Shown here one piece after another: positions 1 through 32,474 of a DNA stretch of 32,474 bases. The DNA lies in IMG/VR virus record IMGVR_UViG_3300030116_001840, positions 1 through 32,474 of that record. The stretch is one strand, 5' to 3'. Both the position numbers and the translations under genes were made by a program. The stretch is from a virus. Numbering within the stretch: position 1 is the stretch's first letter; each line of letters begins with the position of its first letter. The notes under the pieces were generated by a model. That model made no database searches. It was given only the letters and a program-made list of their open reading frames with translations, and had not been told where the DNA came from.

Positions 1-183
1 GCTTAATGTTGGAGCATCGCTATCTAATACAAAGATAACATCCCCTACATTAATCATTCCAGCAGCATCATTAAAATAACCAGAAGCACGCACAACAGTC
101 ATAGCGTCAGTGGAATCGTAAAACCACATATTGTGACCGCCACCACCTGTCATACGAGTTAAACCAGATGCAGAATAAGCCAT
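1..183 (-). CDS. small capsid-associated protein, copy A (3' end cut by window edge)
   Basis: The reading frame opens at ATG 183-181, just after the capsid gene stop, and runs off the left edge after 61 codons without a stop. It begins MAYSASGLTRM and contains a glycine run (GGGG) and NMWFYDSTDAM. The visible part differs from the complete 87-residue copy at 31460-31723 by one residue (T for A after the RM). Its place directly downstream of the major capsid gene suggests a head decoration or stabilising protein; that role is inferred from position only. The truncation is a window artefact, because the sequence continues in homologous form at the other end of the window. Confidence 0.85.
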   Translation of the reverse strand, partial: MAYSASGLTRMTGGGGHNMWFYDSTDAMTVVRASGYFNDAAGMINVGDVIFVLDSDAPTLS

Positions 184-934
184 TATCTAACTCCTTAGTT
201 GTTATCTAAGACTTCAAAGACGCCATCGTCATCAATAACGGCAGCACCCATTGACATCATAGATGTGGTTAAGTGTGAGACTTTTTCTGCAACATAGTTG
301 ATTTCAGTTGAAACGTCAGAGTTGACGCCTAAACCAACAGCAGAAGTATGGTAAGCAAAGTTCTTGCCACCAGCTACAGCAGATGTTGAAAAAATCTTGA
401 AGCTCAAGAACTCTTTCATTGTCATGCCACCAGCAAATGGTAGATTTTGCGGTCCAACAAAGTCAGATGATGCAAACTCATTAATTGCAAACAAGTCAGC
501 AAAACCAGCAGGTGACATTGCTAAATAGCGTTGTCCATCTTCTGGAATGTCTTCATTGCCGAATGTTTCAAATAGAGAAAGCAGATCAGCTTTTTCAAGC
601 GCACTACTTGTGTCGTGAATCTGAGTTGAGTTAGCACCAGCATCCATTGCTGTTGTAATAATCTCGTCAGTCTTACGACCCAAAGCAGCAGCAGCAGATT
701 GCGCTACAGCTTGACGCTCATTAATGTTGATCTTTAGTTCGTCTAGCTTATCAATATACTCAGCAGCATAATGATCAGCCATTGTTGCCTCTACAGTAGT
801 GTGAGCCAATTCCATTGGAGTCACGTTACCATTTCGAGACTTAGTACTTGCAGTGCCTTTTCCAATAACTTGGAAACGAGCAGTCGAACCTGTCACATTT
901 GAAGTACGCACGGTATTCCGTAGCTTAGAACCCA
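1..934. repeat. left copy of the divergent terminal overlap
   Basis: This segment aligns end to end with 31541-32474. Bases 1-78 are identical to 31541-31618; the first mismatch is at 79. Beyond that, differences fall mainly at third codon positions in the small gene and are denser in the capsid gene. The alignment stops only because the right edge of the window is reached. It is either a strain-variant overlap at the ends of a circular assembly or a real gene duplication. Confidence 0.9.
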
Positions 935-1004
935 TACGTTGATACGCCATGTGAACTTCGGTTTCGAACTGCTTGATAAAGGCTGTGTCGATTGAGTTAG
1001 CCAT
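195..1004 (-). CDS. major capsid protein (copy A)
   Basis: A 269-residue coat protein that forms the head shell. It opens MANSIDTAFIKQFETEVHMAYQRMGSKLRNTVRT and has the KSRNGNVTPMELAHT, YIDKLDELK, AAALGRKTDEIITTAMDAGA and FVGPQNLPFAGGMTMKEF blocks seen in the small phage capsid family common in marine podoviruses. The start has a good ribosome site (AAGGACTGAAAA before ATG). It follows the scaffold and gp13-like genes and precedes the small capsid-associated gene by 11 bases, as expected for a highly expressed head module. A candidate promoter motif lies about 130 bases upstream, at 1138-1148. A second copy, about 82% identical in protein over the shared part, is cut by the right window edge. 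Confidence 0.93.
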   Translation of the reverse strand: MANSIDTAFIKQFETEVHMAYQRMGSKLRNTVRTSNVTGSTARFQVIGKGTASTKSRNGNVTPMELAHTTVEATMADHYAAEYIDKLDELKININERQAVAQSAAAALGRKTDEIITTAMDAGANSTQIHDTSSALEKADLLSLFETFGNEDIPEDGQRYLAMSPAGFADLFAINEFASSDFVGPQNLPFAGGMTMKEFLSFKIFSTSAVAGGKNFAYHTSAVGLGVNSDVSTEINYVAEKVSHLTTSMMSMGAAVIDDDGVFEVLDNN

Positions 1005-1082
1005 TTTTCAGTCCTTAATTGAAGTTTCTCTCGCTACAGGTATCCGCTTTTCTACTTCAGCAAGGGTATCCTTTCGGGCCTT

Positions 1083-1664
1083 TCAGTGTATTACGGGCTG
1101 TAATAACCTATCGCTAACATTATTTTTATTTGGATTGCAACGCACAAATTCAACATACTTGTGATTTCTTTGTTCTGAGAACCCTACAGGATCAAAGCCA
1201 AGCCATACTGCCCAGTTCAAAATTAACTCATTACTTTGCAATATAGTCATGGTCATCATAGGTTGAGTCTTATCAAAAAAGTCTACAACCATTCTTGATC
1301 CACGAGCAGCAGCCGTAAAAGATTTCTTTATATTATTTGAAAACATAGCAAACATTTGTGGGCAATCCTGATCTTCATTGTACCAAAGACCCCCAACAGC
1401 AAGAAAAGTCTCTCCCTCTTTCCTAGCTATATAACATTCAGATGTTTCATACATATCAGTAATTGCTTCGCGTATATTGGTATAGCCAAGCAAAGCAAGC
1501 TCTTCTATGTTTTCAGAGCTTAGATGCTCTACAACTTCATCAATGTGATAAGGTTGAAAAGGAGTCAGATAATACTGACCCCTTTGAATAATCTTAACTT
1601 CTGTAGAGTTGTTGCCAACCCTCGTCAACTTGCTTAACAAAATCAGCATCCTTGTTGTATCCAT
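1083..1664 (-). CDS. gp13/GNAT-like phage protein
   Basis: A protein of up to 193 residues. From about residue 30 it reads like the T7 gp13 family, which has a GNAT acetyltransferase-type fold: a TPFQPYHIDEVVEHL opening helix, a CYIARKEGETFLAVGGLWY beta region, then ELILNWAVWLGFDPVGF near the end, matching the family's closing WLRWLGF-type motif. Members are thought to help virion assembly or act as small internal proteins; catalysis is not shown. The start is uncertain. ATG 1664 and ATG 1649 both lie inside the scaffold gene (overlap up to 71 bases) with weak ribosome sites, and no ATG, GTG or TTG occurs between the scaffold stop and the first conserved block. In T7 the homologue sits after tail tube B, so its place between scaffold and capsid is a rearrangement. 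Confidence 0.7.
   Translation of the reverse strand: MDTTRMLILLSKLTRVGNNSTEVKIIQRGQYYLTPFQPYHIDEVVEHLSSENIEELALLGYTNIREAITDMYETSECYIARKEGETFLAVGGLWYNEDQDCPQMFAMFSNNIKKSFTAAARGSRMVVDFFDKTQPMMTMTILQSNELILNWAVWLGFDPVGFSEQRNHKYVEFVRCNPNKNNVSDRLLQPVIH
1138..1148 (-). promoter_or_regulatory. late-gene motif TTTGTGCGTTG, upstream of capsid
   Basis: On the minus strand this reads TTTGTGCGTTG, one of four near-identical 11-mers that each precede a late gene. This one lies inside the 3' end of the gp13-like gene, about 134 bases before the capsid start, and is followed by an A/T-rich stretch with TAATGTTA. As it is also coding sequence, it is the weakest of the four. Confidence 0.35.
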
Positions 1665-2349: not shown

Positions 2350-2596
2350 GTTGTATCCTTGCCTGTATTAAACCTACAATAAATCTCTGACCTTCATGAT
2401 GACGAAGTTCTTCGCTAGAAGTTGCTGCCCCATGAACCATATCTATAGTAATTGATTTTAAATATTTAAGTGTTGCTTCCCCTGACGGAGTTTTAAATGT
2501 CTCAGCTAATACTTGACTGATTTCTAAATCAGATTCAGAAGACCTTTTAAACCCATCAATGCCAAGATTAGCTGTCGCTTCACTCTTCTTGCTCAA
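2321..2596 (-). CDS. Bbp19-like small structural protein, TTG start
   Basis: A 91-residue protein starting at TTG 2596-2594. AAGGAG lies six bases upstream inside the end of the portal gene; a further upstream TTG at 2620 lacks such a site. The C-terminal half (LKYLKSITIDMVHGAATSSEELRHHEGQRFIVGLIQARIQH) matches the pattern of small Bbp19-type proteins that sit between portal and scaffold in podoviruses: a helix, a loop, then an EGQR followed by a final helix. Its role in the particle is unknown; location suggests head assembly. It overlaps the portal by 17 bases and the scaffold by 29. Confidence 0.72.
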   Translation of the reverse strand: MSKKSEATANLGIDGFKRSSESDLEISQVLAETFKTPSGEATLKYLKSITIDMVHGAATSSEELRHHEGQRFIVGLIQARIQHAARNRASE

Positions 2597-4106
2597 TTGG
2601 TACTCCTTGTTGCTGTGCAATTTGCTGCGCTATTGCAGCTATTTGTCTACGCTGTTCTTCATCACGAATCAAGCTTTCTGGCACACCAAATTTTTTAGCA
2701 AGGAAAATTGCGGTTTGTTCTGAGTCAATTAGGAGCTGCAAAGTCTCTGGTCCAAAGGTAGCACCAGTAAGTTCTAGGAACCTTGCAACACTCGATATAT
2801 CCTGATTAGCCTGAGCTTGCGCTAATGGAGATACTGATCTGACCTTTACTTCTCTTCCGTTTACTGTAGGAACCTCTATGCGGCCTTGCTTCTTCAAGAT
2901 ATAAATCACTCGTTGAAGTACAGGCTGCACAAGTTCTGCTTGTAATCTACCAAAAGCAGCACCCATTCTTCTTGATAAATCAGCCATACGTTCAGCAACT
3001 TCTGTTGCTGTTGCAGGTGTTCGATCAGGATTCCCAAGCATATCGTTGTAAAGCGCACGTTTAATATTCAAACGCATGTCACTCAAAACAAGTTGAGCTA
3101 CATCAAAACGACCAGCAGCCTGTATTGGCTGTAATCCAGCAGACCCCATAGCTTTTGGTATAATACTTCCTGGAACGAGATTGATTGTATCAGGGTTTAT
3201 AACGCCATCATCTTCCATCTGATAGATTCCAGATATAGACATCTGAGCATTTTCAAGAATTAATTCTATGGTTAAGTTTGTAGTTTTGATTGCAGATAAA
3301 GCGTTCAATAGTGGTCCTCGACCATATATTTCACCTGCACACTTGTTCCAGCGAAAGCAAATAAAAGGATTTGACCCAATGCCTGAAAGCTCTTTTGAAT
3401 GTAGCAAAGTCTTTGTCGTCATGCAGATTGCATAATGTAAGTAAGCTTCTTGGTTCTTTTTGGAGTAATCTCTGCAAACAACTTCAAGAACAGTCGTTTC
3501 TTTATCTGCTCCCATTTGAGATAAAACACGCTGATCAAACTTTCCATCAGGATACATAATAGGTAAATGATCAAACTTTACCTTTTTACGCTCCCTATAA
3601 ACGTGATCTATTCTATCGTCAGGGCCAGTATCAAGTACGACATGGGGTAGGGGGATTGCGCTAAAAGTAATAGGATTAAGTGAGTCTCCTTCCTCAACGC
3701 ACAAGATACCAGTCCCAACAGCCAAATCCATGAAAGACTCATGAACCTCTTGGCTAAAGTTGGAATTGTTTAAAACCTCAAATACATACTCTGTAACTTC
3801 ATCTAAAACATTATCAACTTCTTCGCGCTGCTCTACAGGAACTTCACTCCCTGCGGTAAGGTCTGCCCATCGAGCAAAGTTAGGAACAATACCCGACTGT
3901 AATCTACTTGCAAACTCTTGCGTACCTACTACAGCAGTCTCATCAAATATCTTTTCATCTCTACGCTGACCAGCCTCTTCATAGTAAAAAGACTCTCTCT
4001 GAGGTAAAGCATACTCATAGCACTCTTCAAAAAGAGGAACCCAGTTTTCTCGAAAGGCTTTTGCTTTCTTATAACTCTGAATGTATTGGCTGGCTATTTT
4101 ATCCAT
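2580..4106 (-). CDS. portal protein (head-tail connector)
   Basis: A 508-residue protein of the T7 gp8-type connector family. It forms the ring at the packaging vertex through which DNA enters and leaves. Recognisable blocks are the N-terminal WVPLFEECYEYALPQRESFY, FDETAVVGTQEFASRLQSGIVPNFARWADL, FMDLAVGTGILCVEEGD, the GPLLNALSAIKTTNL helix, NPDRTPATATEVAERM, and a glutamine-rich C-terminus (IAQQIAQQQG). Length is normal for the family. The start overlaps the stop of the preceding small gene (TAATG), so translation is probably coupled. Confidence 0.94.
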   Translation of the reverse strand: MDKIASQYIQSYKKAKAFRENWVPLFEECYEYALPQRESFYYEEAGQRRDEKIFDETAVVGTQEFASRLQSGIVPNFARWADLTAGSEVPVEQREEVDNVLDEVTEYVFEVLNNSNFSQEVHESFMDLAVGTGILCVEEGDSLNPITFSAIPLPHVVLDTGPDDRIDHVYRERKKVKFDHLPIMYPDGKFDQRVLSQMGADKETTVLEVVCRDYSKKNQEAYLHYAICMTTKTLLHSKELSGIGSNPFICFRWNKCAGEIYGRGPLLNALSAIKTTNLTIELILENAQMSISGIYQMEDDGVINPDTINLVPGSIIPKAMGSAGLQPIQAAGRFDVAQLVLSDMRLNIKRALYNDMLGNPDRTPATATEVAERMADLSRRMGAAFGRLQAELVQPVLQRVIYILKKQGRIEVPTVNGREVKVRSVSPLAQAQANQDISSVARFLELTGATFGPETLQLLIDSEQTAIFLAKKFGVPESLIRDEEQRRQIAAIAQQIAQQQGVPIEQEE

Positions 4107-13188: not shown

Positions 13189-13642
13189 TAAACTAGACAT
13201 TTGGAACAAGCTGGCTGCTTCAGACCCCAAATATCTGAAGCAAGTCAGCTTTGGCAGTAGATCATTTACAGCCATTGATCCTCAGTACCAAGTCAGAATG
13301 ATGACCGAACAGTTCGGACCGATTGGTTTAGGCTGGGGCTGGTTCAATACAACTGAGGTAGTGTCTGTCAGCAACGGAGACAGTGCTGTACTAGCGCATG
13401 TAACTGTTTGGCATACAGATAACCATCATTCCTTTGGGCCATTCACAGGCTGTCGAAAGTTCTTTGACGCAGCGAAGGGTCGTATGGCAGAGGATGCACC
13501 AAAGATGGCTATCACTGATGGTCTTACCAAAGCACTGTCGCACATTGGCTGTAATGCTGATGTCTTTTTAGGTGAGATGGATGGTAACAAGTATGCTGCT
13601 GATAGCAACAAAACTGCTGATGATGGTAAACCCAAATGGTAA
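13181..13642 (+). CDS. single-strand annealing recombinase (ERF/Rad52-like)
   Basis: A 153-residue protein. FTAIDPQYQVRMMTEQFGPIGLGWGW and AEDAPKMAITDGLTKALSHIGCNADVFLGEMDGNKY are the paired blocks of phage annealing proteins in the ERF/Rad52-like group: a start strand-helix, then an alanine-rich helix followed by G-x-NADVFLG. It should coat and anneal the 3' strands made by the exonuclease that overlaps it upstream, giving concatemers. Exact subfamily is unsure. The tail is short and hydrophilic. The stop is followed immediately by a long inverted repeat. Confidence 0.78.
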   Translation: MSNKLDIWNKLAASDPKYLKQVSFGSRSFTAIDPQYQVRMMTEQFGPIGLGWGWFNTTEVVSVSNGDSAVLAHVTVWHTDNHHSFGPFTGCRKFFDAAKGRMAEDAPKMAITDGLTKALSHIGCNADVFLGEMDGNKYAADSNKTADDGKPKW

Positions 13643-13704
13643 TTCTTGGGAAGACAACCCCCAAGTTGTTATGAGCCTGATCGGGGGGGCAGGTTTCCCA
13701 AGAA
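13643..13704 (+). promoter_or_regulatory. long intercistronic hairpin
   Basis: TTCTTGGGAA (13643-13652) pairs perfectly with TTCCCAAGAA (13695-13704); inside, CCCCC near 13657-13662 can pair with the G7 run at 13683-13689. The arms start at the base after the annealing protein stop. There is no T-run, and C6 follows. Likely an RNA stability or processing element between the annealing and SSB-like genes, which need different amounts of product. Confidence 0.55.
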
Positions 13705-13738
13705 CCCCCCACTTAACTTAAACAAAGGAGCCAGAAGC

Positions 13739-14098
13739 ATGGCAGAATATGACGATACAAATAGAGGCGCAGCTTTCACACCATTCCCAACTCAGAAGAT
13801 GATTCTTCAAGGCAAGGTAAATGTTGAAGGCATTGACCATAAAGTTATCTTGGTCAAAGATACAACAAGAGATGGCACAGAGATTATTGAGATGTACACA
13901 AAGATGGGTGCAATGTTTGACAATGATAAGAAGGGCAATGAGTCTGCTCCCGATTACTCTGGGCCTGTTGGTAGCGATAAACGTATTGCAGGGTGGAGAC
14001 GCATGAAGGATGAAAAACCATATATGAGTTTCCAGATTACTGATAAACAACAAAAAGATTCAGGAAACACCTTGAAAGATGATGACATACCGTTCTAA
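13739..14098 (+). CDS. SSB-like single-stranded DNA-binding protein
   Basis: A 119-residue protein. The start is ATG 13739 with AAAGGAG just before it; an in-frame ATG at 13646 would place the inverted repeat inside the gene and is rejected. The body (FTPFPTQKMILQGKVNVEGIDHKVILVKDTT... SAPDYSGPVGSDKRIAGWRRMKDEKPYMSFQI) looks like a beta-rich OB-type or DUF736-like fold. It ends GNTLKDDDIPF, the acidic DDDIPF tip that SSB proteins use to recruit partners. It would protect strands produced by the exonuclease. The sequence identity of the OB fold is inferred. Confidence 0.75.
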   Translation: MAEYDDTNRGAAFTPFPTQKMILQGKVNVEGIDHKVILVKDTTRDGTEIIEMYTKMGAMFDNDKKGNESAPDYSGPVGSDKRIAGWRRMKDEKPYMSFQITDKQQKDSGNTLKDDDIPF

Positions 14099-17135: not shown

Positions 17136-17462
17136 TTACCAAGGCGTTCCTGTGCCAGTGGTAGGGGTTTTGGATGCTGTAATCTCAGCGGCAATACCGC
17201 TCTCAACATCACTTTTATTTACTTCGGCTTGCGCCCAAGCAATACAGTTAGCCTCAGTTACGCTGTCGTATGCAATGAAGCCGTCAGCACTAGCGTCAGG
17301 TGTATGAGTTGTTACGCCATACTTTGACACTGTGTGTGTTACTGCGTCATCTCCAGAACCAACTGTTTCTGAACCTTCGCATCTCCAATGAATAACAGTA
17401 ATACCGCCATCAGATAGATTGCGTTCCACTGTAGGTATTGTCCAAGTATATGTAATTGCCAT
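17136..17462 (-). CDS. fibre-adjacent beta-rich protein
   Basis: A 108-residue protein: MAITYTWTIPTVERNLSDGGITVIHWRCEGSETVGSGDDAVTHTVSKYGVTTHTPD... The TYTW.IPT.E.......G.I...HWRC pattern is common in phage proteins next to tail fibre genes, and the whole looks like a beta sandwich. The start overlaps the tail fibre stop by one base, so it is made along with the fibre. Possible fibre chaperone or particle surface protein; function is unknown. Confidence 0.75.
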   Translation of the reverse strand: MAITYTWTIPTVERNLSDGGITVIHWRCEGSETVGSGDDAVTHTVSKYGVTTHTPDASADGFIAYDSVTEANCIAWAQAEVNKSDVESGIAAEITASKTPTTGTGTPW

Positions 17463-20400
17463 TAGTTAGCCTCCAATGCTGCTATTTTTGTTTCAAGTGT
17501 TTCAATCTTGGCCATTGCCTCTTGCAATGCTTTAATAATTATTGGGGTAGTTCTGCCATAATCAACAGCCCAAGATTTTTTTGTTACATCCTCGTCACCT
17601 TCGCTAACTGCATCTGGAAAAATGGTATGTAATTCTTGAGCAATAAACCCTGTTACTGTTTTATTCGATGTATCTGCAGTCCATTCATAATCACGAACTT
17701 GTATCTGTTTTAATGCGTCCCACTTTGAACCTGTGTCACGAATGTTTGATTTAAGACGCCTATCTGAGCTAGTTTGATAAGCAACAGAACCTGCGCCTGC
17801 TCCTTCAATTCTGCCTTGCTGTCCGCCACTATCAAAGAAGTTAATATAATTAGCGGTGCTAAAAGAGTTGTCAGCTGAAAAACCAATAGCAAGAAGTGTT
17901 GAACCACCTTCAACAGTAGAATCTTCATCTACAATCATTTGAACAGCATTAGAAGAAGTATTAGAACCACCAACAACCGCTAATCTAGTTGCATCAATAC
18001 CTCCAAATGTTGAAGCGGTAGACCCCATTAATATGACACCTGAGCTATTAAGACGAAGCCGCTCCGTAAACTGCCCAGAAGCACCAGTTAATCCATGATG
18101 ACCAATAGTTATATGGTCGCCAGTTGCAGCAACAATATCGCCTTCATCCGTAGAATTTCCGTCCACAATAAGAGCGGGTAAATTGTTAGTACCAACAGCT
18201 CTTACAGTTCCATTTACTTCTAAAGGGTACGCAGGATTTGAATCATTTATTCCAACATTGCCATTATTTTTAAAAAAAGCTGACTCTGTTACATTTGAAG
18301 GAGAACCTGAACCACCACCGTCTGCATAACGAATAGCAAGACCATCTCCTAGAGCAATAAGAAACCAATCTCTTGTTTGTCCAGTGTCACTTATAGCAAT
18401 TGCAGGACTTGAACTATCCTCAACAACTAAGGTTGCTTGACTGTTTGCATATGAAGTTGGACTGCTAGTTCCTATGCCTAATCTATTTACAACAAGTCGC
18501 ATACGCTCTGTATAAACATCAGAACCAATATTACCTGTTGTTGTGTAGAATGCTTGAGTAGAAGCCGCAGGGGAGCCAATAGCTGAACCCGCTCCACCAT
18601 TAAAATTAAATTGTGCAAAGCCACCGCCTGATGAATTTATAACAAGTTTTACATCACTAGAAGATGGGCTTGTAGTTGTTCCAATTCCAACATTACCTGA
18701 ACTATCAATACGCATACGTTCTGCAATAGACGCAAGGTCACCAGTATGAAATGTCATTGCTTCAGTTGAAGATGAGTATCCTATTCTGCCAGATGGATTG
18801 CCTGACCCACCGCCAAGAAAATCTAAATTCATTACAGATGTACTTGAAGCACTACCATTTAATGCAATAGTTTTTGTACCAGTTGCACCATCACCGACAG
18901 TTAATTGGCCTTTGTTTGCTGTTGTACCAATTAAAACATTTCCTGAACTATCAATACGCATACGTTCTGAACCACCAGTTTGGAAAGCTAAAACATCTGA
19001 ACCTGCTATATTAACTCCAGTGTTAATATCGCTTTTGCCTCGAATATAATCTAAATAAATAAAAGAGTTAAACGTAGCTGCCCCTGCATTAGACATATCA
19101 AGGGTTAAGGCAGTTACGATAGACCCATTATCTACCCCTCTAAAGATCATATCTTTATCGTTAACTTTTGACTCAATTAGTAAGTCACCTGCATTATTTT
19201 GAAACCTAGCAAATGTAGTTCCTGCATCATTGAAAAAAATATCCCCATCATCAGCATCGAGAATAATGTCCCCTGCTACATCAAGAGTAAAATCACCAGA
19301 AGTATTAGCTATGTTGCCAGTTACAGTTACACCAGAAGAGGTAGTGGCAATTTTAGCTGCGTTATCATAGTAAAGAGTTACTGCACCATTATTAGCAGCA
19401 AACAAATAGTTTTCACTGTTATCAGCATTGTTTAACTCTAAATTGTTAGCTTGTATTCTAAGATTGCCCGTCCCATTGTCTTGAATTATGCTGCGACTAC
19501 CATCATGATATATGCTTAAATCTGCATCTGCACCAAACGTTAACCTATCATCAGAAGCCCCAGAACTATCACCAAAAACAATATTATTCCCTGCGGTAGT
19601 ATTACCTATGCCAAGAACAGTAGATAAGTTTCCTGCGCCACCCCCTGCAACCTGAGCATCAACATATGCTTTAATCGATTGCTGAGTTGCTAAGTGACTA
19701 GCACTATTAGAAGCCATACTATCTTCATCTTTAATCGATGAACCACCTATTGATCCATTTAAAGTAGGGCTTGTTAAAACTTTATTTGATAAAGTTTGTG
19801 AACCTGTAAGCGTTACCACACTTGAATCAATAGAAAGAGTTGATGAAGTTGCAGTAAGACCAGTTGTAGCATTAATATTTAAAGTTACAGTCCCACTTGT
19901 ACCACCACCAGTTAAACCTGTACCTGCAATAACTCCAGTAATATCACCTGTTGGAACAGTTGCTACCTGTGCATCAACATATGCCTTGATTGATTGTTGC
20001 GTTGCTAATCGTGATGATGAGTTAGATGCCATATTATCTTCATCAAGAATAGCAGAACCCGATACATTGCCATTTAAAACAGCACTTGTAAGCGTCTTGT
20101 TTGTTAGCGTATCTGTAGTCGCTTTACCAACCAAAGTGTCAGTCGCATCAGGTAAAGTAAGTGTTCGAGTTCCAGTAAGTGTAGCAACATCAATATCTAA
20201 TGTATTACTATTTTGATAAAATCTAATCTCAGGAGTTGTTGTTGATTGTAACTGAATAGATTGTGCGCCACCATTTGTTAAGAAATCTACATAACCCAGT
20301 GCAGCTTTCATACTAATAGCACCAGCACTTGTTTCTATTGTAGTAGCACTATCAGCAAGAATCCTATTACCAGCAGCACTTATTCTAAAAGTAAACTTAC

Positions 20401-21196
20401 TTGTACCACCATCTTTAAAATATATCTCTCCACCATCAGCATCTAAAGTAATATCACCAGAAGAGTCTACTAGAACATCTCCAGAAACTAATCGAGTACC
20501 ACCTCCAGTTGCAGTAATATCAACAACGTAAGGTGATGCATTACCATCTAATAAAACCTTGCCAACACCAGAGCCTTTGTTTGACTGAAGTATTAAAGTG
20601 CCATTTTCAGAAACTATTCTTGAATCTGCATCTGTATTAGCTCTTAAAAAAGTGCCCTCCCCTGGAGTGCCAGAGTAAGCAATAGTAAGTGAGTCAACTG
20701 TTAAGTCAGCAGAAGCAGTGCTTATATTACCACTACTATCAAAGCCAAGTAATTTATCAGCACGATTTGCAACACTTGGTAATGTTAAGGTTGCATCAGC
20801 ATCCCAATCAGCAAGACGTACTGTTCTAGTATTTACATCCTTAATATCAGAAGTAATAGCTGTTAGCTTATCAAGCTGCTCGTTTAATGCAGCTCTGTTG
20901 ATTGCAGCACCACCAGTAAAATCAGTAACACGCTCAATATCAATGTTTCTAACAATCGTTATAATGTGATTGAGAGTAATCCCAGTGCCAAAGGTAATGC
21001 TACCTGTTGAGCCACTGCCACCAGTTACAGTGTAATGTGTTGTTAATGTTTTCTGCGTTACCGACCCAGATGTATCTTCTTCGAACACATCAAAGTCATC
21101 GTTGTCAAAAAACTCAAAAGGTACAGCAAACACAGTTTGACCGCTAGTTGCTGTGTACCTTACTCTTGGATCGTTATCAGATAAAGAAATAGCCAT
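17462..21196 (-). CDS. tail fibre protein with S74 self-cleaving chaperone
   Basis: A 1244-residue receptor-binding fibre. The N-terminal 150 residues (DPRVRYTATSGQTVFAVPFEFFDNDDFDVF... NIDIERVTDFTGGAAINRAALNEQLDKLTAI) are the T7 gp17-type virion anchor. The middle holds two diverged repeats (LTNKTLTSAVLNGNVSGSAI...ATQQSIKAYVDAQV and its copy) and several ERMRIDSSGNVGIGTT-type units. The C-terminal 101 residues, from about S1144 (SSDRRLKSNIRD... VTGFIAQELHTIFPDAV), are a Peptidase_S74 intramolecular chaperone that helps the trimer fold and then cuts itself off. It closes with a coiled coil. It decides host range. The late-gene motif at 21241-21251 lies just upstream. Confidence 0.93.
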   Translation of the reverse strand: MAISLSDNDPRVRYTATSGQTVFAVPFEFFDNDDFDVFEEDTSGSVTQKTLTTHYTVTGGSGSTGSITFGTGITLNHIITIVRNIDIERVTDFTGGAAINRAALNEQLDKLTAITSDIKDVNTRTVRLADWDADATLTLPSVANRADKLLGFDSSGNISTASADLTVDSLTIAYSGTPGEGTFLRANTDADSRIVSENGTLILQSNKGSGVGKVLLDGNASPYVVDITATGGGTRLVSGDVLVDSSGDITLDADGGEIYFKDGGTSKFTFRISAAGNRILADSATTIETSAGAISMKAALGYVDFLTNGGAQSIQLQSTTTPEIRFYQNSNTLDIDVATLTGTRTLTLPDATDTLVGKATTDTLTNKTLTSAVLNGNVSGSAILDEDNMASNSSSRLATQQSIKAYVDAQVATVPTGDITGVIAGTGLTGGGTSGTVTLNINATTGLTATSSTLSIDSSVVTLTGSQTLSNKVLTSPTLNGSIGGSSIKDEDSMASNSASHLATQQSIKAYVDAQVAGGGAGNLSTVLGIGNTTAGNNIVFGDSSGASDDRLTFGADADLSIYHDGSRSIIQDNGTGNLRIQANNLELNNADNSENYLFAANNGAVTLYYDNAAKIATTSSGVTVTGNIANTSGDFTLDVAGDIILDADDGDIFFNDAGTTFARFQNNAGDLLIESKVNDKDMIFRGVDNGSIVTALTLDMSNAGAATFNSFIYLDYIRGKSDINTGVNIAGSDVLAFQTGGSERMRIDSSGNVLIGTTANKGQLTVGDGATGTKTIALNGSASSTSVMNLDFLGGGSGNPSGRIGYSSSTEAMTFHTGDLASIAERMRIDSSGNVGIGTTTSPSSSDVKLVINSSGGGFAQFNFNGGAGSAIGSPAASTQAFYTTTGNIGSDVYTERMRLVVNRLGIGTSSPTSYANSQATLVVEDSSSPAIAISDTGQTRDWFLIALGDGLAIRYADGGGSGSPSNVTESAFFKNNGNVGINDSNPAYPLEVNGTVRAVGTNNLPALIVDGNSTDEGDIVAATGDHITIGHHGLTGASGQFTERLRLNSSGVILMGSTASTFGGIDATRLAVVGGSNTSSNAVQMIVDEDSTVEGGSTLLAIGFSADNSFSTANYINFFDSGGQQGRIEGAGAGSVAYQTSSDRRLKSNIRDTGSKWDALKQIQVRDYEWTADTSNKTVTGFIAQELHTIFPDAVSEGDEDVTKKSWAVDYGRTTPIIIKALQEAMAKIETLETKIAALEAN

Positions 21197-24200: not shown

Positions 24201-24749
24201 AACTAATCCAGATATAGCACCACCAATAACAAATGCAGAACCTACATTAATTGCAGCCTCTTCTGGAGTTGCTAAAGGATCAAGAGGATAACGAATAGCT
24301 TCCTGACCAGCTACAACAGTTGCAGTCGAAGCACCGCCACGAATAACATTGCCAGCAAAACTTGCACCACGAGCAAACGGAATACCTACATAATTAATAG
24401 GATCAAATAACTCAGCGCCAAACTGAGCAATAATACCAGATGAAGCAAGTGTTTGTCGTGTCTTAATACCATCACGAACTTGCCTAATTAAATAATCCAT
24501 ATGCTCCTGATTAGTTGCCCTTAAAAGCGTAGAAGCATAAGGAGTTAAGTCCTCTGGAATATAATCTCTAGCTCTATATCCGTCTTCTGGAACAGTAGGA
24601 AACTTAGAGCGTTCATTAACAAAGCTAATTAATGGATCGTACTTATATGCTAAACTTGCACTAACTGTTTCCATAAAAGATACTTCTGGAGTAGGCTGAA
24701 CACCTTGAGCAGCTTGAATGTCACGAAGTACATTAAATCCATTTTCCAT
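21252..24749 (-). CDS. large internal virion / DNA ejection protein with HExxH motif
   Basis: A 1165-residue protein at the T7 gp16 position (last internal protein before the fibre). After a mixed N-terminus there are hydrophobic stretches (FARGASFAGNVIRGGASTATVVAG; AFVIGGAISGLVSI), then long helical regions, and QFYSYSLAAVNKI and GTAMSMGLGYMVLQY near the end. No lytic transglycosylase block was found. At residues 877-881 it has HEIMH, preceded by INTPDDYVTFIKM and followed by VAYENAINDLAIAE with E903. This is a plausible zinc metallopeptidase motif of the gluzincin type inside an ejection protein. It may act on the cell envelope during DNA entry. It starts in a TAATG junction. Confidence 0.82.
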   Translation of the reverse strand: MENGFNVLRDIQAAQGVQPTPEVSFMETVSASLAYKYDPLISFVNERSKFPTVPEDGYRARDYIPEDLTPYASTLLRATNQEHMDYLIRQVRDGIKTRQTLASSGIIAQFGAELFDPINYVGIPFARGASFAGNVIRGGASTATVVAGQEAIRYPLDPLATPEEAAINVGSAFVIGGAISGLVSIPVQRRIAAQKSAEEEITNLQRQIAPEGEEPRGDIAPSLFTDSWLYKAVTTPMKRILTDDTIPNSVKLRTLKIANDSGLLLAANKQGQKVGNSVYQNAKLLEGEWVRVYDETMNIWGQSTGKGVTQALDYTFQRKDFETWLEGVDSKAMRGIEPADDLEAQAMMKINKFYEKWEERLSEQGLIGTTPYYERFVVDRERRVEAAQKRLEKARNIDYRMKLEEQIRRYGSQIDEAKQILEDLKYSGPVLPLNEKVFRPRYWDQDAIRANINGFRDILFEWYSNNPSVIRKNKDGKFARVELSTTRKDIAKRVDETVASILGIKDILDPEIGYYGAGKSKHFKHRLVDIPNELVLDYIQTNPIAVMKAYTQRTGARYEFARMFNGNTIDDVLDDTFNEMMDAGKSPEKAYAAMKDMRHLYKRVIGGLQRDPDSWEQSTARILRNLAQLNYLGSAGISTITEPAKIMMEHGLGPTFRGLFSIMKNNQLKLAAKEARYAGEALDNLMNSAHLRLVDDVNNNPFRSDILDRAKEPFYLLNGLGPLTRIFKDFDAMVRSHSLIDYSIKWTQGKATKQEQEYLLRYNIDLEDAQKIANAPWQKSEAGFYMANTDAWTNAIEFPATRAEVISGPTESFARDGRYKPAFYRDKEKKIYIDEEYIKDVMYEQRGWENPRVEGIKPIKKGIINTPDDYVTFIKMHEIMHSLNRPKDMGFDVRKKADKVAYENAINDLAIAEIEKQARVSPDTVQTFRNALSSGIMNTILMGTPADKPIITDGIVYIPMRVARQFGMKEDVEFKGYARVESGLLGLPFQFYSYSLAAVNKITAAYGHGQLKNQWIGTAMSMGLGYMVLQYKTPDFVEMEFQDQFARAFDYSGVAALYSDMFYTAMSTSLALGGPNITGGVLQPRFPQKPDALDAATGLLGAGPSIATDIGRGVYDLTTGNIGEGTKEIIRNLPFARMWFWKGKMNELTNMIEGELDSPLGFGRY

Positions 24750-27700
24750 TACAACCCACCTGCCCCTAGACCTCTAGTAAAAGCAGAAATGCTAGGGTCC
24801 ATATCTCTTATCTTTTTTTGTAATGCAAAACCTTTAGATTGTTTTTGCTCTAAAGCATCAAGCTCAGCTTTATTTTCAGCTTCTTTCTTTTTGTAATAAT
24901 CTGATATATCTTTTTTACTAAATGTAGGCCACATAGATATACCGTCTTTCTCAAAGATTAATGGGCGCAACTCTTCATTCTCATCTACAAAGTAAGAAAA
25001 ATACAAAACACCAGCAGTGCTTTCATCTGGAGCTAAATAAACCTTTTTTTGCTCTGCTCGTCTTTCTTCAGGTGAAACAAATTGTTCTGGTAATTGACTT
25101 AAATTAGGATCAAGAGAATAATCAGAAGGTAAATTACTTTCTACAGCAGCAATAAATGCTTTTCTTTCTTCTTCATCTGGGAATTGCTTTTCTAAAGCAT
25201 ATCTTGATCGCTTTATACTACCAACAGGAAACCTTGGATCAACAATATAGGTAGACTTAGGATAATGCTGATCTTTTAAAGTTTCTAATCTAGCATTAAT
25301 TTGTTTTTTACTTTTGCCACTTCTTGCTAAATATTCAACAGAAGCAGACAGCTCAGTACCAATAATTTGATCCCCTCCAAAATAATCTGTTGCATATTCT
25401 GTTGGTGTTTTATCTCCTAAAACTAAGTCCATCTGAACACTAGACTTTGGATCATTCTGCCTTTCTACTAATGTTGTTATAATTTCATTAGCATTGCCAC
25501 CAATCGTAGTTCGTATTGAGTTTGCATCATTAAGTAACTCAATAGTTTTTTGATCTAAAGCATCCCCAAATCTATTAATAAACAATCCTGTTTTTGTAGG
25601 ATCGTTTGAAAGAATAGCAAACAAATCAAGATAACTATCTGCATTTTCTATTGGCAAACCAGAAGCAAGCTTATCCATCTGATCAATATATCCTTGAGGT
25701 GCAGCACTACGCATCAAAGAAATAACAGTGGTTTTTAATGTAGGATCAAATGTATTAAACTGGCCTAAATCAATATCTTTATTATCTAATATATCTTGAG
25801 AATATTGCCTATCATCTTTATTATTAACATCACCATTACCGCTAAGAATCCTTTTTTGATTATTTCTAAGATTAATAGCATCTTCCAATTCTTTTTCTTC
25901 AGCAGCAACGGTAGACTTTAAACCATTAATTTTACTTACTACAGCATCTCTTTGCCCTGCTTCTGTTCTCTCAAGAATATTATTACCAGCATTAATAATA
26001 TCTTCAGACATACCCTCTGTACGCTGACCACCACTATCAATGTAAATTGCAAGATTATTTAAATCACGAGAACTAGCAAACCTAGCAAAAGATTCAACTA
26101 AACCTAATGCACGTTGTTTAGTTAATCTGTTTATTTCTGATTCAGCTTGATCTGCAGTTAATTTATTTGGACCAATGCTATTCTTAACATCGTTTACTAA
26201 ACTATTGAAAGCTTCATCAGATAGACCGCCTGTCTCAGCAAGCACCCCTGCCTCAGTGATTGATTCAGATATTTCAAATCTAAATTTTTCACGTTCAGCA
26301 GCTATTCTTAAATCATTCTTAGATGCAGATAAAACTTCACGAACAAATCCAATGTCTTCTCGTGCATTAAACATATCTGATTTATAAATATCATTAATAA
26401 CCTGCTTTTGCTCAGCAGTTAAATTTGCCATGTCTTCAGGATTGCGTGTATTAAAAGCAATACGAAACTCTTCTACATTACCTTGTGCAGCAGCTTGTAT
26501 AAGAAATGGACGTAATGCTTCTTGTCGAGCATCTTTAAGATTAGACTCAAACTCAGCTCTAGTATAAGTCTGATCCGCTTTAAATCTTGCTTCTTCAGCA
26601 TCTTTGATTGCATTATAAAGATCATTAGTTTTACCGATTACTGAAGAAATAGCAGATGGGTTTTCAAAGCTAAAACCAAGTGTAGCAAACCCTGTTGCCT
26701 GAGTACCAAAGTCTAATAAACTATCACTAAACTGAAGCTCAGAAGCTCTTGATTTCTCTGCAAGCTGATCTTTTAATATCTCAGCCATATCTTGTTCAAC
26801 AGCATTATAATCAGCAGCTACGGTTGAGCTATGACTAAGAACACGTTCTATATTTGATGGCTCAACATATTTAAGAAGCTCTTTTAAATCATCTCTTAAA
26901 TCTGTAGGGACTGCACCTATAACCTCACCACGAGTACGAATAGCAAGCTCAATAGCATTTCTTTCTAATGAAGAATAAGTTCTGCTCATTAAATGCTCTA
27001 CAGCACCTCTAGCAATAGCTTCATTAATCTTTTGCTTTGCTACAACATCAGAGCCAACATCAACTAAACCTGAGTTAATACCATTTACAGTATTTGCTAC
27101 TTCACGACTAACAATAGCATCTGTTTCACTTTGTTCTTCGCCTTCTCTTGCTTTATATCCACCAGCTCGAGCAAGTGTATAAGCATCATCAGCCGCAGCA
27201 TCTACAGAAACACCTATTGATTTAGCCGCATCTTCTCTTGCTTTTGTAGCAATGCGCTCTGTAATATTTAATTTAGTTAAAGCTAAATACTTACTCCCAG
27301 TTGTCTCTATGTAAGATTTATACTTACCTTGAGCATTTTTAGACATTTCGGATATATAACTATCCATAGCCTCATCATATGCTTCTGGAGCAAATGGAAA
27401 CTTTAATGATATTTCTTGAGCTTTTAATCTAAGCTCAGTATTCATTGAGTCTTCAAAGCGTTTATCAATAACACGTTGATATGACTCAGCAGCAATCTGA
27501 CCAAATGTTGATGGAGCTTTGTATGCCTCTGGCTTACCTGTTTCTGGATTAATAGTTCTTAATCCTTTTTCTTCTACAGCTTGAGCAAGCTCAATACCTT
27601 TTTTCTGAGCTTCATCTGCAGCATCTTGATAAGCTAACTGAGCCATTGTATTAGCAGCTCTACTGATTGAACCTGCTACTTCCTGAGCACCAGCCCTTGT

Positions 27701-27757
27701 TTGAACTATACCTACTGGCTGATTAAAAACTTGCGTTCTTTGTCTTCGTACAGCCAT
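24749..27757 (-). CDS. internal virion protein, gp15-like
   Basis: A 1002-residue, almost entirely helical, charged protein (MAVRRQRTQVFNQPVGIVQTRAGAQEVAGSISRAANTMAQLAYQDAADEAQKKGIELAQ...). The opening, then long alanine- and glutamate-rich helices, and the position between a gp14-like and a gp16-like gene fit T7 gp15. These proteins leave the head with the DNA and build a channel across the envelope. No enzyme motif was seen. The C-terminal 100 residues contain lysine-rich coiled coil (KKKEAENKAELDALEQKQ). A ribosome site (GTGAGGACATAACT) precedes the ATG, two bases after the preceding gene. Confidence 0.82.
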   Translation of the reverse strand: MAVRRQRTQVFNQPVGIVQTRAGAQEVAGSISRAANTMAQLAYQDAADEAQKKGIELAQAVEEKGLRTINPETGKPEAYKAPSTFGQIAAESYQRVIDKRFEDSMNTELRLKAQEISLKFPFAPEAYDEAMDSYISEMSKNAQGKYKSYIETTGSKYLALTKLNITERIATKAREDAAKSIGVSVDAAADDAYTLARAGGYKAREGEEQSETDAIVSREVANTVNGINSGLVDVGSDVVAKQKINEAIARGAVEHLMSRTYSSLERNAIELAIRTRGEVIGAVPTDLRDDLKELLKYVEPSNIERVLSHSSTVAADYNAVEQDMAEILKDQLAEKSRASELQFSDSLLDFGTQATGFATLGFSFENPSAISSVIGKTNDLYNAIKDAEEARFKADQTYTRAEFESNLKDARQEALRPFLIQAAAQGNVEEFRIAFNTRNPEDMANLTAEQKQVINDIYKSDMFNAREDIGFVREVLSASKNDLRIAAEREKFRFEISESITEAGVLAETGGLSDEAFNSLVNDVKNSIGPNKLTADQAESEINRLTKQRALGLVESFARFASSRDLNNLAIYIDSGGQRTEGMSEDIINAGNNILERTEAGQRDAVVSKINGLKSTVAAEEKELEDAINLRNNQKRILSGNGDVNNKDDRQYSQDILDNKDIDLGQFNTFDPTLKTTVISLMRSAAPQGYIDQMDKLASGLPIENADSYLDLFAILSNDPTKTGLFINRFGDALDQKTIELLNDANSIRTTIGGNANEIITTLVERQNDPKSSVQMDLVLGDKTPTEYATDYFGGDQIIGTELSASVEYLARSGKSKKQINARLETLKDQHYPKSTYIVDPRFPVGSIKRSRYALEKQFPDEEERKAFIAAVESNLPSDYSLDPNLSQLPEQFVSPEERRAEQKKVYLAPDESTAGVLYFSYFVDENEELRPLIFEKDGISMWPTFSKKDISDYYKKKEAENKAELDALEQKQSKGFALQKKIRDMDPSISAFTRGLGAGGL

Positions 27758-28206: not shown

Positions 28207-30842
28207 TAAACTATTAACTCCACTACTAATCCATTAACCTGTAGTGGTAATGGCTCTGATTGCTCGATTGTAACTTGAGGACTGCGAGTATATCCTGTTG
28301 TCCTTACTTCCTTTTTACCAACTAAAGGATCAAGTATTGATTGTGTTGGTGTTTCAGGATTTGTTTTGCTTGAAATAGGTATGCTCTTATTGTTTACTTT
28401 GAGAGAGAAAGCATCTTTTACATCAAGTAAAATTCTTCCTATCCCTCTTACCTCACCAGTTACAGGACCATTACCCATAGAAGCATCTATCTCATTAGTA
28501 ACAATCTTAGCGTCAAACTTCTTGCCAACATAAACATATGTATGACCTAATCCAGAATATGCAGATAAATCAATCTTCTCATTAGAATCAACAGTAAATG
28601 TTCCTAAGTATTCTTGATAGCTGTCGATGACATCAGTTCCTATAACATCAACAACATCACCCTGATTATAAGCAGCACTTACATCAGCTTCATTGCTAAA
28701 AATAAGTTGATGCAACCAAATATCTAAGCCAACATTCTGCGTTGATTTAGGGGCAAACTCACAAACATGAAGCTGTCCACTCGTATCGTAAATCTCAGCA
28801 AACAATCTGTCCTCAATAGCACAGACAGAACCAAACTTACCTTCAGTAGTAAACTGTACCCAAGATGCTTTTCTTTCAGCTCTGTTTGAAGAAAATACAA
28901 TGAGGTTATTGCCTGTTGTAGTCATAGCTGCATAGGAATCTGGTTGACCAAAACCACTATGAACAACCGCCATATATCTTGGCGTATCAATCATATGTGA
29001 CGCTATGCTAGATACAGGCACAGAAGTATAAGCATCCTCTCCGTCTGTAAATAAATACTCTCGAACAACCTTACCATTACGCTGAACAAACAAAGTAGCT
29101 CCATCAAGCTCTATTGGCTGCACATGAGAAATACCAAATGGAGTTTGCTTTTTAATCTGTAAGTTTGTTGGTGTTAATGCCTGATTCTGAAATGTAGGAA
29201 TATATAACTCAGCACCAGCAGCAAAGATTTGTAAGTCTCTGTTGGAAACTAAATACCTGATTTCATTTACATCGCCAGTAGCAGCAGTCACCTGTATTGC
29301 ATCATCATCAGCAGCATCACCAAGATCAAAGTTAGCAAACTTACCAATCTTGCTAAAAAACAAAGTATCAGGCTCATCAAGTGTACCAGCAAAGACTAAG
29401 CGGTTTTGATGAAACTCTACAGCAGCAGGGTATCCCCTTACCTCAGAAAATGACTGCTCATCAAAGTCAGTTGTAGGTGCATGACTTGTAATCTTAGGAA
29501 ATCCACCGCCATCAGCAGAAGAGTTTGCAGTGCCTCCAGCAGTAAAGCTGTAAGTATTTTCATCAATAACTTCATGTATTGTTCTAGCACCATTTATATT
29601 ACTAGCATTTATACCACCAAGAGCGGTTGCATCTGAAACAGTAATAGCCTCACCTACAGAAAAGCCATGTTGAGGCTGACTAACTTCAACCTTATCACTA
29701 CCATCATTAGCCCTAAGAGGATTTTCTATTTCTAATCTTGTAGAAAGGGTATCAAGAATATCTGCTCGAAACTGATTAGAGTTATAAACTGTATCTATCT
29801 TTAATTCATTCTTATGATACCGAAGTAAAATATCTTTATGTTTTGATGCACTATAGTTTTGCAACTTTCCACTACCAGTATCTTTTGACCCAGTAATATC
29901 TAAATAAGTAACACCCCTTTTATTTGTGTGACCAATATTTACAGAATTTGCAAAATTACCATTAGCATAAATAGTCGAAACAGATTTAAACATTCTATCT
30001 AAATATATTGTCGTATTATTAGGGCCATCTATAGATTCAGTAAGAGCTACACCGTCCTGATCTGTTCCAGTAAAAGTAAATGTTACTCCACTAATATTAC
30101 CAGTAGATGTAAGACTTATTTCAACAGCGTTATCAAAAGCATCAGTTGCACCAGTATTTAGTGGTAAATTTCTAGCACCTAAGGTATTAGTTAAATTATA
30201 ATAATGTGTAGCATCAGTAGTGCCATCTGTAGTGTAGATGCTAAAATCTATATTATCTCCACTTGTGGCAGTAGAATCAAGTTTTACATTTGCATCTGCA
30301 AAACGAGAATAGGGTTGAAAAGTAACAAGCGCATCAGCTCTTTGATCGAAAGCAAAAGTTCTAACATGAAAACTAGTAGCACTTGTTCTCCGTAATATTC
30401 TAGGCGCAAACAATGGATGACAGATAAACATGTCATTCCCAAGTTGTGCTACCGTATATTCCTGAAGATATGCTTTATCAAAAGGTAAAGTAGTACCATC
30501 TTTATCTGTTGTTGTGTTTAAACGCTGAGTTAAACTTGTTGCATTAACCTGATGAACCCTTATTCTTTGATGCTGTATAGCAACTATATACTCTTCGTTC
30601 TCATCATAAATAAATGGAAATAAATGAGATTGTTCTGTATTATTAGCATCATAGGTAATTCCACCATACTTAGCCATATGTTTAGCCCCATAACGCTTAG
30701 TTACAGAACCCTCTGGCATAACAACCATGTTTTGTAATGTCTGAACAGATGAAGCATAAACAGGGCTATCTACTCTCATCGAAAGAGAATCACTGACTTC
30801 ACCAAATTGAAAGCTATTAATCGGAACTCTAACTCTCTGCAT
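28206..30842 (-). CDS. tail tubular protein B (gp12-like)
   Basis: An 878-residue nozzle protein. The opening RVRVPINSFQFGEVSDSLSMRVDSPVYASSVQTLQNMVVMPEGSVTKRYGAKHMAKYG is the conserved start of gp12-type tail proteins. The middle is beta-rich with FDQRADALVTFQPYSRFA-type and FHQNRLVFAGTLDEPDTLFFSKIGKFANFD blocks, the latter a strong family mark. It forms the tail tip through which DNA passes and to which fibres attach. The protein is somewhat longer than T7 gp12 (about 794). TAATG junction with tail tube A. Confidence 0.9.
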   Translation of the reverse strand: MQRVRVPINSFQFGEVSDSLSMRVDSPVYASSVQTLQNMVVMPEGSVTKRYGAKHMAKYGGITYDANNTEQSHLFPFIYDENEEYIVAIQHQRIRVHQVNATSLTQRLNTTTDKDGTTLPFDKAYLQEYTVAQLGNDMFICHPLFAPRILRRTSATSFHVRTFAFDQRADALVTFQPYSRFADANVKLDSTATSGDNIDFSIYTTDGTTDATHYYNLTNTLGARNLPLNTGATDAFDNAVEISLTSTGNISGVTFTFTGTDQDGVALTESIDGPNNTTIYLDRMFKSVSTIYANGNFANSVNIGHTNKRGVTYLDITGSKDTGSGKLQNYSASKHKDILLRYHKNELKIDTVYNSNQFRADILDTLSTRLEIENPLRANDGSDKVEVSQPQHGFSVGEAITVSDATALGGINASNINGARTIHEVIDENTYSFTAGGTANSSADGGGFPKITSHAPTTDFDEQSFSEVRGYPAAVEFHQNRLVFAGTLDEPDTLFFSKIGKFANFDLGDAADDDAIQVTAATGDVNEIRYLVSNRDLQIFAAGAELYIPTFQNQALTPTNLQIKKQTPFGISHVQPIELDGATLFVQRNGKVVREYLFTDGEDAYTSVPVSSIASHMIDTPRYMAVVHSGFGQPDSYAAMTTTGNNLIVFSSNRAERKASWVQFTTEGKFGSVCAIEDRLFAEIYDTSGQLHVCEFAPKSTQNVGLDIWLHQLIFSNEADVSAAYNQGDVVDVIGTDVIDSYQEYLGTFTVDSNEKIDLSAYSGLGHTYVYVGKKFDAKIVTNEIDASMGNGPVTGEVRGIGRILLDVKDAFSLKVNNKSIPISSKTNPETPTQSILDPLVGKKEVRTTGYTRSPQVTIEQSEPLPLQVNGLVVELIV

Positions 30843-31426
30843 TAGCTACGCCTTTGTGCAATAAACCTCGAGGTATTGAGCTTTCTTGTAGTTTGCTGTT
30901 GTGAATCAAGTGTTTTTGCTTTTCTCATTTGCTGTTCAGCCTTTAGCTCCATTGCTGAACTCAAAGCTCCATCACGAGCAACAGATACCGCAAAAATACT
31001 AGCTAGAAAAAACTCAACCCCAAGAATAAAATATGCAGGCCAGTTTTCTTCCGTTACCCTAAATATATAGTCAGCAATCACAACATCAGCACTGTCTGCA
31101 TTACAGAAAGCTTTGTTTCCGTAAATATCATATTTAATAGGTAAGTCCTGAACAGTAATGGCATTTACCATTAATGTGTCAGCAGGGAGCTGGTAAGCAG
31201 CATCAAACCTTCCTGTTGGTGCGTCTGTAAGCCTACCAAGTTGCTGTTGATTTGTTGCAAACCTCCAGCGGGTTCTTGTTAAACAAGATTGAACAACATC
31301 TTCATAAATATTATTAGCAACATCTGCTTCAGTTGTTCCATCCGTAAACGATTGAATCGCATCACCACCAATCAAGATGGATGCGCGAGATGCTATTTTT
31401 ACTGCACTATCAGCTATTGTTGGCAT
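30842..31426 (-). CDS. tail tubular protein A (gp11-like)
   Basis: A 194-residue adaptor ring protein. MPTIADSAVKIASRASILIGGDAIQSFTDGTTEADVANNIYEDVVQSCLTRTRWRFATNQQQLGRL is the standard gp11-type opening: the ILIG...SF.DGT.EA..A..IYE......L..TRWRFAT motif. It joins portal to tail tube B. It follows a tetraloop hairpin (31433-31452) that separates it from the capsid genes, and it overlaps tail tube B by one base. Confidence 0.9.
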   Translation of the reverse strand: MPTIADSAVKIASRASILIGGDAIQSFTDGTTEADVANNIYEDVVQSCLTRTRWRFATNQQQLGRLTDAPTGRFDAAYQLPADTLMVNAITVQDLPIKYDIYGNKAFCNADSADVVIADYIFRVTEENWPAYFILGVEFFLASIFAVSVARDGALSSAMELKAEQQMRKAKTLDSQQQTTRKLNTSRFIAQRRS

Positions 31427-31432
31427 GTTAGT

Positions 31433-31452
31433 ATGGGGGCCGAAGCCCCCAT
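31433..31452 (-). promoter_or_regulatory. stable UUCG hairpin between capsid and tail genes
   Basis: A perfect eight-base inverted repeat (ATGGGGGC with GCCCCCAT) whose minus-strand loop is TTCG closed by C-G, the very stable cUUCGg tetraloop. It lies seven bases after the small capsid-associated gene stop and just before the tail tube A start. No U-run follows on the transcript, so partial termination, 3' protection of capsid mRNA, or a processing site is more likely than full termination. Confidence 0.7.
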
Positions 31453-31459
31453 CCCTTTA

Positions 31460-31723
31460 TTAATCGCTATCTGTTACAGTAATTGCTGTACCATCAGATA
31501 TGTCAACAACACTACCAGTGTTCGAAAGAACAAGAGCAACGCTTAATGTTGGAGCATCGCTATCTAATACAAAGATAACATCCCCTACATTAATCATTCC
31601 AGCAGCATCATTAAAATATCCAGATGCACGAACTACAGTCATAGCATCAGTGGAATCGTAGAACCACATATTGTGACCCCCACCACCAGCCATGCGAGTA
31701 AGACCAGATGCAGAATAAGCCAT
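31460..31723 (-). CDS. small capsid-associated protein, copy B (complete)
   Basis: An 87-residue acidic protein with no charge-rich helices: MAYSASGLTRMAGGGGHNMWFYDSTDAMTVVRASGYFNDAAGMINVGDVIFVLDSDAP... ending VDISDGTAITVTDSD. It looks like a single beta-barrel domain. It follows the capsid gene by 14 bases with its own ribosome site (AGAGGAGACTTAATA). Small beta proteins after the capsid gene are often head decoration proteins; here that is inference. The sequence is nearly the same as the truncated copy at 1-183. Confidence 0.85.
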   Translation of the reverse strand: MAYSASGLTRMAGGGGHNMWFYDSTDAMTVVRASGYFNDAAGMINVGDVIFVLDSDAPTLSVALVLSNTGSVVDISDGTAITVTDSD

Positions 31724-32474
31724 TATTAAGTCTCCTCTTAGTTATTATCTAGCAGTTCGTAAACGCCGTTGTCATCAATAACAACTGAACCCATTGACAT
31801 CATTGATGTCGCTAGGTGCGATACTTTTTCTGCTACATAGTTTACTTCAGTTTGAACATCTGAGTTCACACCAATACCTACTGCTCTCATGTGATAAGTA
31901 AAGTTCTTACCACCAGCAACAGCTGATGTTGAAAAGATCTTGAAGCCCAAGAACTCTTTCATTGTCATACCGCCAGCAAATGGTAGGTTTTGTGGCCCAA
32001 CAAAGTCGCTAGAAGCAAACTCTGTAATGTTGAACAAATCTGCAAAACCAGCTGGGGACATAGCAATATAACGCTGTCCGTCTTCTGGAATATTAGCAGT
32101 ACCAAATGTTTCAAAGGTAGAAAGAAGATCAGCTTTACTTACAGCAGAACCACCAGCACCTAACTGAGTTGAGTTAGCACCAGCATCCATAGCTGTTGTA
32201 ATAAGTTCATCAGTCTTACGACCTAAGGCAGCAGCAGCAGATTCAGCAACAGCTTGACGCTCATTGATGTTTGTTTTCAACTCGTCAAGTTTGTCGATGT
32301 ACTCAGCAGCATAGAAGTCAGACATTGTTACTTCCACATTAGTATGTGCAAGTTCCATTGGCGTGACGTTGCCGTTTCTTGATTTAGTTGTTGCTGATCC
32401 AGTTCCTATTTTTTGGAATCGAGCAACATTGCCTGACACATTCGTGGAACGAATGGTATTACGCAGTTTAGAAC
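31541..32474. repeat. right copy of the divergent terminal overlap
   Basis: Homologous along its full length to 1-934, in the same orientation. It starts inside the small capsid-associated gene, where 78 bases are identical, and ends at the window edge inside the capsid gene. The unit between equivalent points is 31,540 bases, the probable circular genome length. Confidence 0.9.
31738..32474 (-). CDS. major capsid protein (copy B), 5' end cut by window edge
   Basis: The frame is open to the right edge. It begins within SKLRNTIRSTNVSGNVARF, equivalent to residue 26 onward of copy A, so the first 25 or so residues lie outside the window; the internal GTG at 32439 is not the start. About 44 of 244 comparable residues differ from copy A. 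The largest cluster is the loop QLGAGGSAVSKAD, against QIHDTSSALEKAD in copy A, while YIDKLDELK, FVGPQNLPFAGGMTMKEF and AEKVSHL are kept. Changes are spread along the gene with an intact frame, as expected for two functional variants. Confidence 0.92.
   Translation of the reverse strand, partial: SKLRNTIRSTNVSGNVARFQKIGTGSATTKSRNGNVTPMELAHTNVEVTMSDFYAAEYIDKLDELKTNINERQAVAESAAAALGRKTDELITTAMDAGANSTQLGAGGSAVSKADLLSTFETFGTANIPEDGQRYIAMSPAGFADLFNITEFASSDFVGPQNLPFAGGMTMKEFLGFKIFSTSAVAGGKNFTYHMRAVGIGVNSDVQTEVNYVAEKVSHLATSMMSMGSVVIDDNGVYELLDNN

Follow-up and report, generated by a model that had tools for sequence, protein, structure and literature searches.

The DNA analyzed here (the window), which spans 32,474 bp and forms one IMG/VR virus record, carries capsid coding sequence at both of its ends. 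The end overlap is real, and we are highly confident that the capsid duplication is an effect of assembly and that the genome has one capsid gene and a circular map of about 31,540 bp. A capsid is found at both window ends because the assembly would have run full circle onto another strain's version of the region. Almost certainly, the doubled capsid is not a real feature of the phage and the second copy is an artefact.

Terminal overlap and capsid copies

Self-BLAST of the window aligned positions 1-931 with 31541-32474 (E = 0); across 938 columns, the DNA identity was 80.2%. The initial annotation had aligned 31541-32474 with 1-934 throughout; this was borne out for 1-931, but not without gaps, since an ungapped comparison of the two ends gave 43% identity only. 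The low value is due to small indels, which make a gapped alignment necessary. The overlap starts with 78 exact bases, as previously noted, shared by positions 1..78 and 31541..31618 (minus strand in both cases). This stretch, designated X, was delimited by self-BLAST (on the left also by site comparison) and lies within a small gene; its first instance is the left contig end and its second instance is the point at which the circle closes.

Capsid copy A (195..1004, minus strand) is a complete gene for a major head protein of 269 aa, with 99.1% DNA identity to L155 (also L218; IMGVR_UViG_3300045135_000392), the closest relative, which is uncultivated. Its assignment to PF19821 (Phage_capsid_2) and phrog_3437 is based on a full-length profile match above the cut-off: the PF19821 match scored 210 bits, with a cut-off of 25, and covered residues 4-264 of 268, and the phrog_3437 match had an E value of 2.5e-56. 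Copy B (31738..32472, minus strand) also matched phrog_3437 (E = 3.1e-45) and is 95.5% identical at the DNA level to L085 and 80% to copy A. The contig breaks off within copy B, so that the N-terminal 25 residues are missing. Both frames are open, in line with the initial annotation, but copy B is not a whole gene, and the window content is one complete and one 5'-truncated capsid gene.

The two capsid proteins are 82.0% identical over their 244 common residues, which agrees with the earlier estimate of about 82%. Their genes differ at 39, 25, and 106 first, second, and third codon positions, respectively, and the change is mostly synonymous (NG86 dN 0.13, dS 1.19). Judged from the reading frames and substitutions, this divergence pattern is that of two functional alleles or genes. 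Intact frames and mostly synonymous change would be expected of two working genes, as in a real tandem duplication with the order capsid A, small gene, capsid B, small gene, gp11 in one phage; two strain alleles, however, would equally have intact frames. Furthermore, the capsid A and capsid B regions are located at opposite ends of the window and not in tandem, and each of them is truncated.

Single capsid genes and inexact end overlaps in relatives

Related loci were gathered with four queries: capsid A, capsid B, gp11, and the small protein. This yielded 289 loci including that of the isolate Hodr, some of them being overlapping stretches of one contig. One capsid gene was present in 284 loci, none in 5, and two in not a single one. 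In all 271 loci with a complete capsid gene and gp11 start, which correspond to 215 distinct sequences, the capsid-gp11 distance was at most 346 bp, so a second capsid cannot fit. In none of these 271 relatives, all with a complete region, did a molecule carry two capsid copies between portal and gp11. Similarly, 27 longer related records (17-35 kb) had one capsid each; the sole second capsid match among them covered 31 residues at one end of G018 and corresponds to an exact 99-bp terminal repeat. In light of these counts, the tandem pair of different capsid genes that the initial annotation had offered as its alternative is very improbable.

We also compared both ends of 19 near-full-length related contigs. 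An inexact end overlap like that of the window was detected in about six: G002 (1,063 bp, 88.0% identity), G008 (1,100 bp, 93.9%), G015 (320 bp, 97.5%), G022 (148 bp, 99.3%), G020 (143 bp, 96.5%), and, as the least clear case, G013 (172 bp, 99.4%, about 540 bp inside the right end). The end structure occurs at arbitrary genes: terL in one place, an exonuclease gene in another, and elsewhere the region that holds the internal virion protein and fibre genes. Real duplications would need a different gene doubled in each contig. The overlaps fit a circular map assembled from a mixed population and speak against a duplication in the window as well. G002, G008, and G015 resemble the window in that the inexact overlap has an exact run at one or both sides, while their overlaps are in other genes and diverged less (2.5-12%). 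The end pairs of these three contigs (L331/L332, L333/L334, and L337/L338, respectively) could be missed by circularity tests based on exact repeats. Other sister contigs had exact terminal repeats of 77, 99, and 123 bp, which are typical sizes of assembler k-mers, or a short one of 22 bp, and in three, exact matches of 98 bp lay no more than two bases from the ends. For HTVC010P-like phages, it was described that high microdiversity tangles assembly graphs and fragments short-read assemblies (PMC6487183). The circles implied for the relatives are about 32-35 kb.

Terminal repeats of phages are renewed from each other in replication and are hence identical. The copies in the window are 20% different, and a packaged terminal repeat was rejected for this reason. 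Such a true long terminal repeat, with ends that diverged from each other, would have a counterpart in the 125-bp direct terminal repeats of the related pelagiphage Polarivirus skadi, but the skadi repeat includes terL and not the capsid gene (PMC10504331). Moreover, the gene in the overlap differs from contig to contig among the relatives, which argues against a fixed packaging end. We consider the probability of this explanation negligible.

Joining the ends at X gave the 31,540-bp circle that had been proposed, with the order capsid, small protein, gp11, as in L155. The joined small gene (183 + 81 = 264 bases) is intact and encodes an 87-aa product. Thus, the same locus at both ends, an exact junction, and a coherent joined gene order were all found, as for an assembly overlap. 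The window would then derive from one HTVC010P/Hodr-like marine podophage, as a metagenomic contig of its circularly permuted or terminally redundant genome. The assembler would have circled this genome once (about 31,540 bp), back to the small gene between capsid and gp11. There, X would be common to two kinds of molecules in the sample, one of capsid A type and one of capsid B type, and we infer a fork: one branch would be the left contig end, and the other would have been extended 856 bp further, giving a right end inside capsid B. Capsid B would be another allele of this gene, contributed by a co-occurring phage whose backbone is either different or, in a recombinant, that of the window.

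Two observations count against the assembly overlap. First, a 78-bp exact match is not equal to a usual odd k-mer; the exact overlaps of the relatives are 77, 98, 99, and 123 bp, so that 78 bp is within their range, and the assembler is not identified by the size. Second, copy B (80% identity) is more diverged than the overlaps of the sister contigs (88-99%).

Origin of copy B and the capsid/small-gene cassette

The nearest DNA neighbours of the window were L155/L161/L156/L157-like from the portal to capsid A and in gp11. For capsid B, they were L085 (95.5%) and L084 (90.8%). All complete B-like capsids found in IMG/VR (at least 92% aa identity) were in another backbone, with 73-78% aa identity to the window in the portal and 53-61% in gp11. 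The internal virion protein gene of the window's backbone is about 97% identical to L155, whereas the value for B-lineage phages is about 43-49% (aa). No complete B-like capsid was found in the window's own backbone, the case of L158 being 41 capsid residues at a contig edge. By these similarities, copy B is from another lineage and is not a near variant of the window's phage. The closure of a circular or permuted genome onto a strain variant, as initially annotated, is supported by the single-copy order in relatives and by the inexact overlaps at unrelated genes, with the refinement that the variant is a distant one.

The gp11-like tail protein gene (30842..31426, minus strand; phrog_394) has 96% DNA identity to L155 and thus belongs to the same lineage as copy A. 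Next to it, a gap with the hairpin GGGGGCTTCGGCCCCC (31427..31459) separates it from the complete small gene (31460..31723, minus strand; 87 aa, phrog_18004, function unknown, no Pfam match). The latter is 95.8% identical to L217 overall, 100% over X, and 81.4% to L155. Across the gap, the sequence switches from L155-like on the gp11 side to L217-like on the small-gene side. The switch coincides with the stop codon of the small gene; of the next 159 bases, 155 are identical to L155, and a GC-rich 14-base hairpin is all that is shared there with L217. Since this is shorter than the usual assembler k-mers, the gp11-side junction is probably a real recombination border.

The small gene after capsid A (1..183, minus strand) is represented by its 5' part, 61 codons out of 87, as the contig ends there. 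L155-like and L217-like sites are mixed in it as far as base 79, and inside X, all 11 informative sites are L217-like. The 60-bp core of X was found exactly in one other IMG/VR contig only, L217/L292. No further IMG/VR contig has this core and could join X to either capsid, and consequently the two assembly branches are not visible in other contigs.

In the DNA profile of L157, the region from the portal through the internal virion protein is mostly 86-94% identical to the window, with portal and internal protein mostly at 88-94%, the capsid 74-85%, the small gene 64%, and gp11 83-92%; L159 has a similar pattern by protein identity. Other phages with this backbone thus show capsid exchange, and capsid and small gene together behave as an exchangeable mosaic cassette. 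The small gene (phrog_18004) also varies independently of its neighbours (98% for the small gene and 58% for gp11 in L217; 60% and 86%, respectively, in L161) and is missing in 45 of the 215 distinct relatives. For its product, a role as a variable head or decoration protein is possible.

If the contig closed onto another strain's version, capsid B and its small gene could also be present in the window's own backbone in a part of the population, as a result of cassette exchange. We put this forward tentatively, at somewhat below even probability. It is consistent with the contig itself, which joins capsid B and the L217-like small gene to the L155-like gp11 across a shared hairpin of about 14 bases, and with the other capsid alleles in the same backbone (L157, L159). 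The phage, moreover, encodes a RecE/YqaJ-like exonuclease and a possible ssDNA-binding protein. On the other hand, every complete B-like capsid was found in a different backbone, and X is also next to capsid A: an exchange may have involved the small gene tract only, with the contig running on from there into a foreign phage. The coexistence, in one population, of two capsid alleles with 82% protein identity as an exchangeable cassette of capsid and small gene is a possibility that we hold with less than even confidence. The cassette borders would be the hairpin before gp11 and a second site in or near the capsid gene, and otherwise similar phages would display different coats.

The adjoining early genes at 12403-14098 comprise the RecE/YqaJ-like recombination exonuclease, a second exonuclease, and a weak match to a ssDNA-binding protein, a set that would fit a high recombination rate.

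Significance and comparison with related phages

The analysis keeps the phage from being wrongly described as having two capsids, and it indicates that the genome probably measures about 31.5 kb and has a circular map. Inexact end overlaps were present in about one-third of the examined near-full-length contigs of the group, and circularity tests demanding exact end repeats could miss such contigs, even though they represent essentially complete genomes. For coat variation in abundant marine phages, the mosaic capsid/small-gene cassette offers a modest biological lead.

The window encodes proteins of a marine podophage: the PF19821/phrog_3437 capsid, the portal or head-tail adaptor (2580..4106, minus strand; phrog_332), terL, the tail proteins phrog_394 and phrog_376, an internal virion protein, and a fibre. 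An internal virion protein-like gene (1083..1664, minus strand; weak match to phrog_308) is located upstream of capsid A, in the same position as in relatives. The large tail fibre gene (17462-21196) ends in a Peptidase_S74 intramolecular chaperone and has internal diverged repeats (18675-18723 with 18921-18969 and 19646-19774 with 19961-20089). Between gp12 and an internal virion protein with an endolysin domain, 24749-27757 encodes a 1,002-aa protein that had no match in PHROGs; its nearest relatives have about 88% DNA identity.

L155 has 97.4% DNA identity over window positions 1-3211, and its capsid is 99.6% identical (aa) to capsid A, its small gene 91%, and its gp11 97% (aa). It has one capsid and the same order of internal virion protein, capsid, small gene, and gp11. 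Unlike the window, it lacks capsid B, its small gene has 81% DNA identity to the complete copy, and its internal virion protein genes match more weakly.

Among annotated isolates, the nearest is Pelagibacter phage EXVC031P Hodr (OQ414635; 34,238 bp, circular record), for which no paper was found in a literature search. Hodr has the same order of capsid, small gene, and gp11 with one capsid, but is distant: aa identity is 62% for the portal, 53% for the capsid, and 43% for gp11, and a DNA-level match was obtained in the portal region only. Nevertheless, tblastn with Hodr (portal, capsid, small gene, gp11, gp12) and the PHROGs matches revealed a shared order of the structural module, which places the window among the HTVC010P-type/Hodr-like phages. 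The G+C content of the window is 39%, compared to 31.5-32.5% in skadi (PMC10504331). A SAR11/Pelagibacter host is suggested by the distant isolates only. The HTVC010P-type pelagiphages, with genomes of about 35 kb, have a capsid of the same family with about 30% aa identity.
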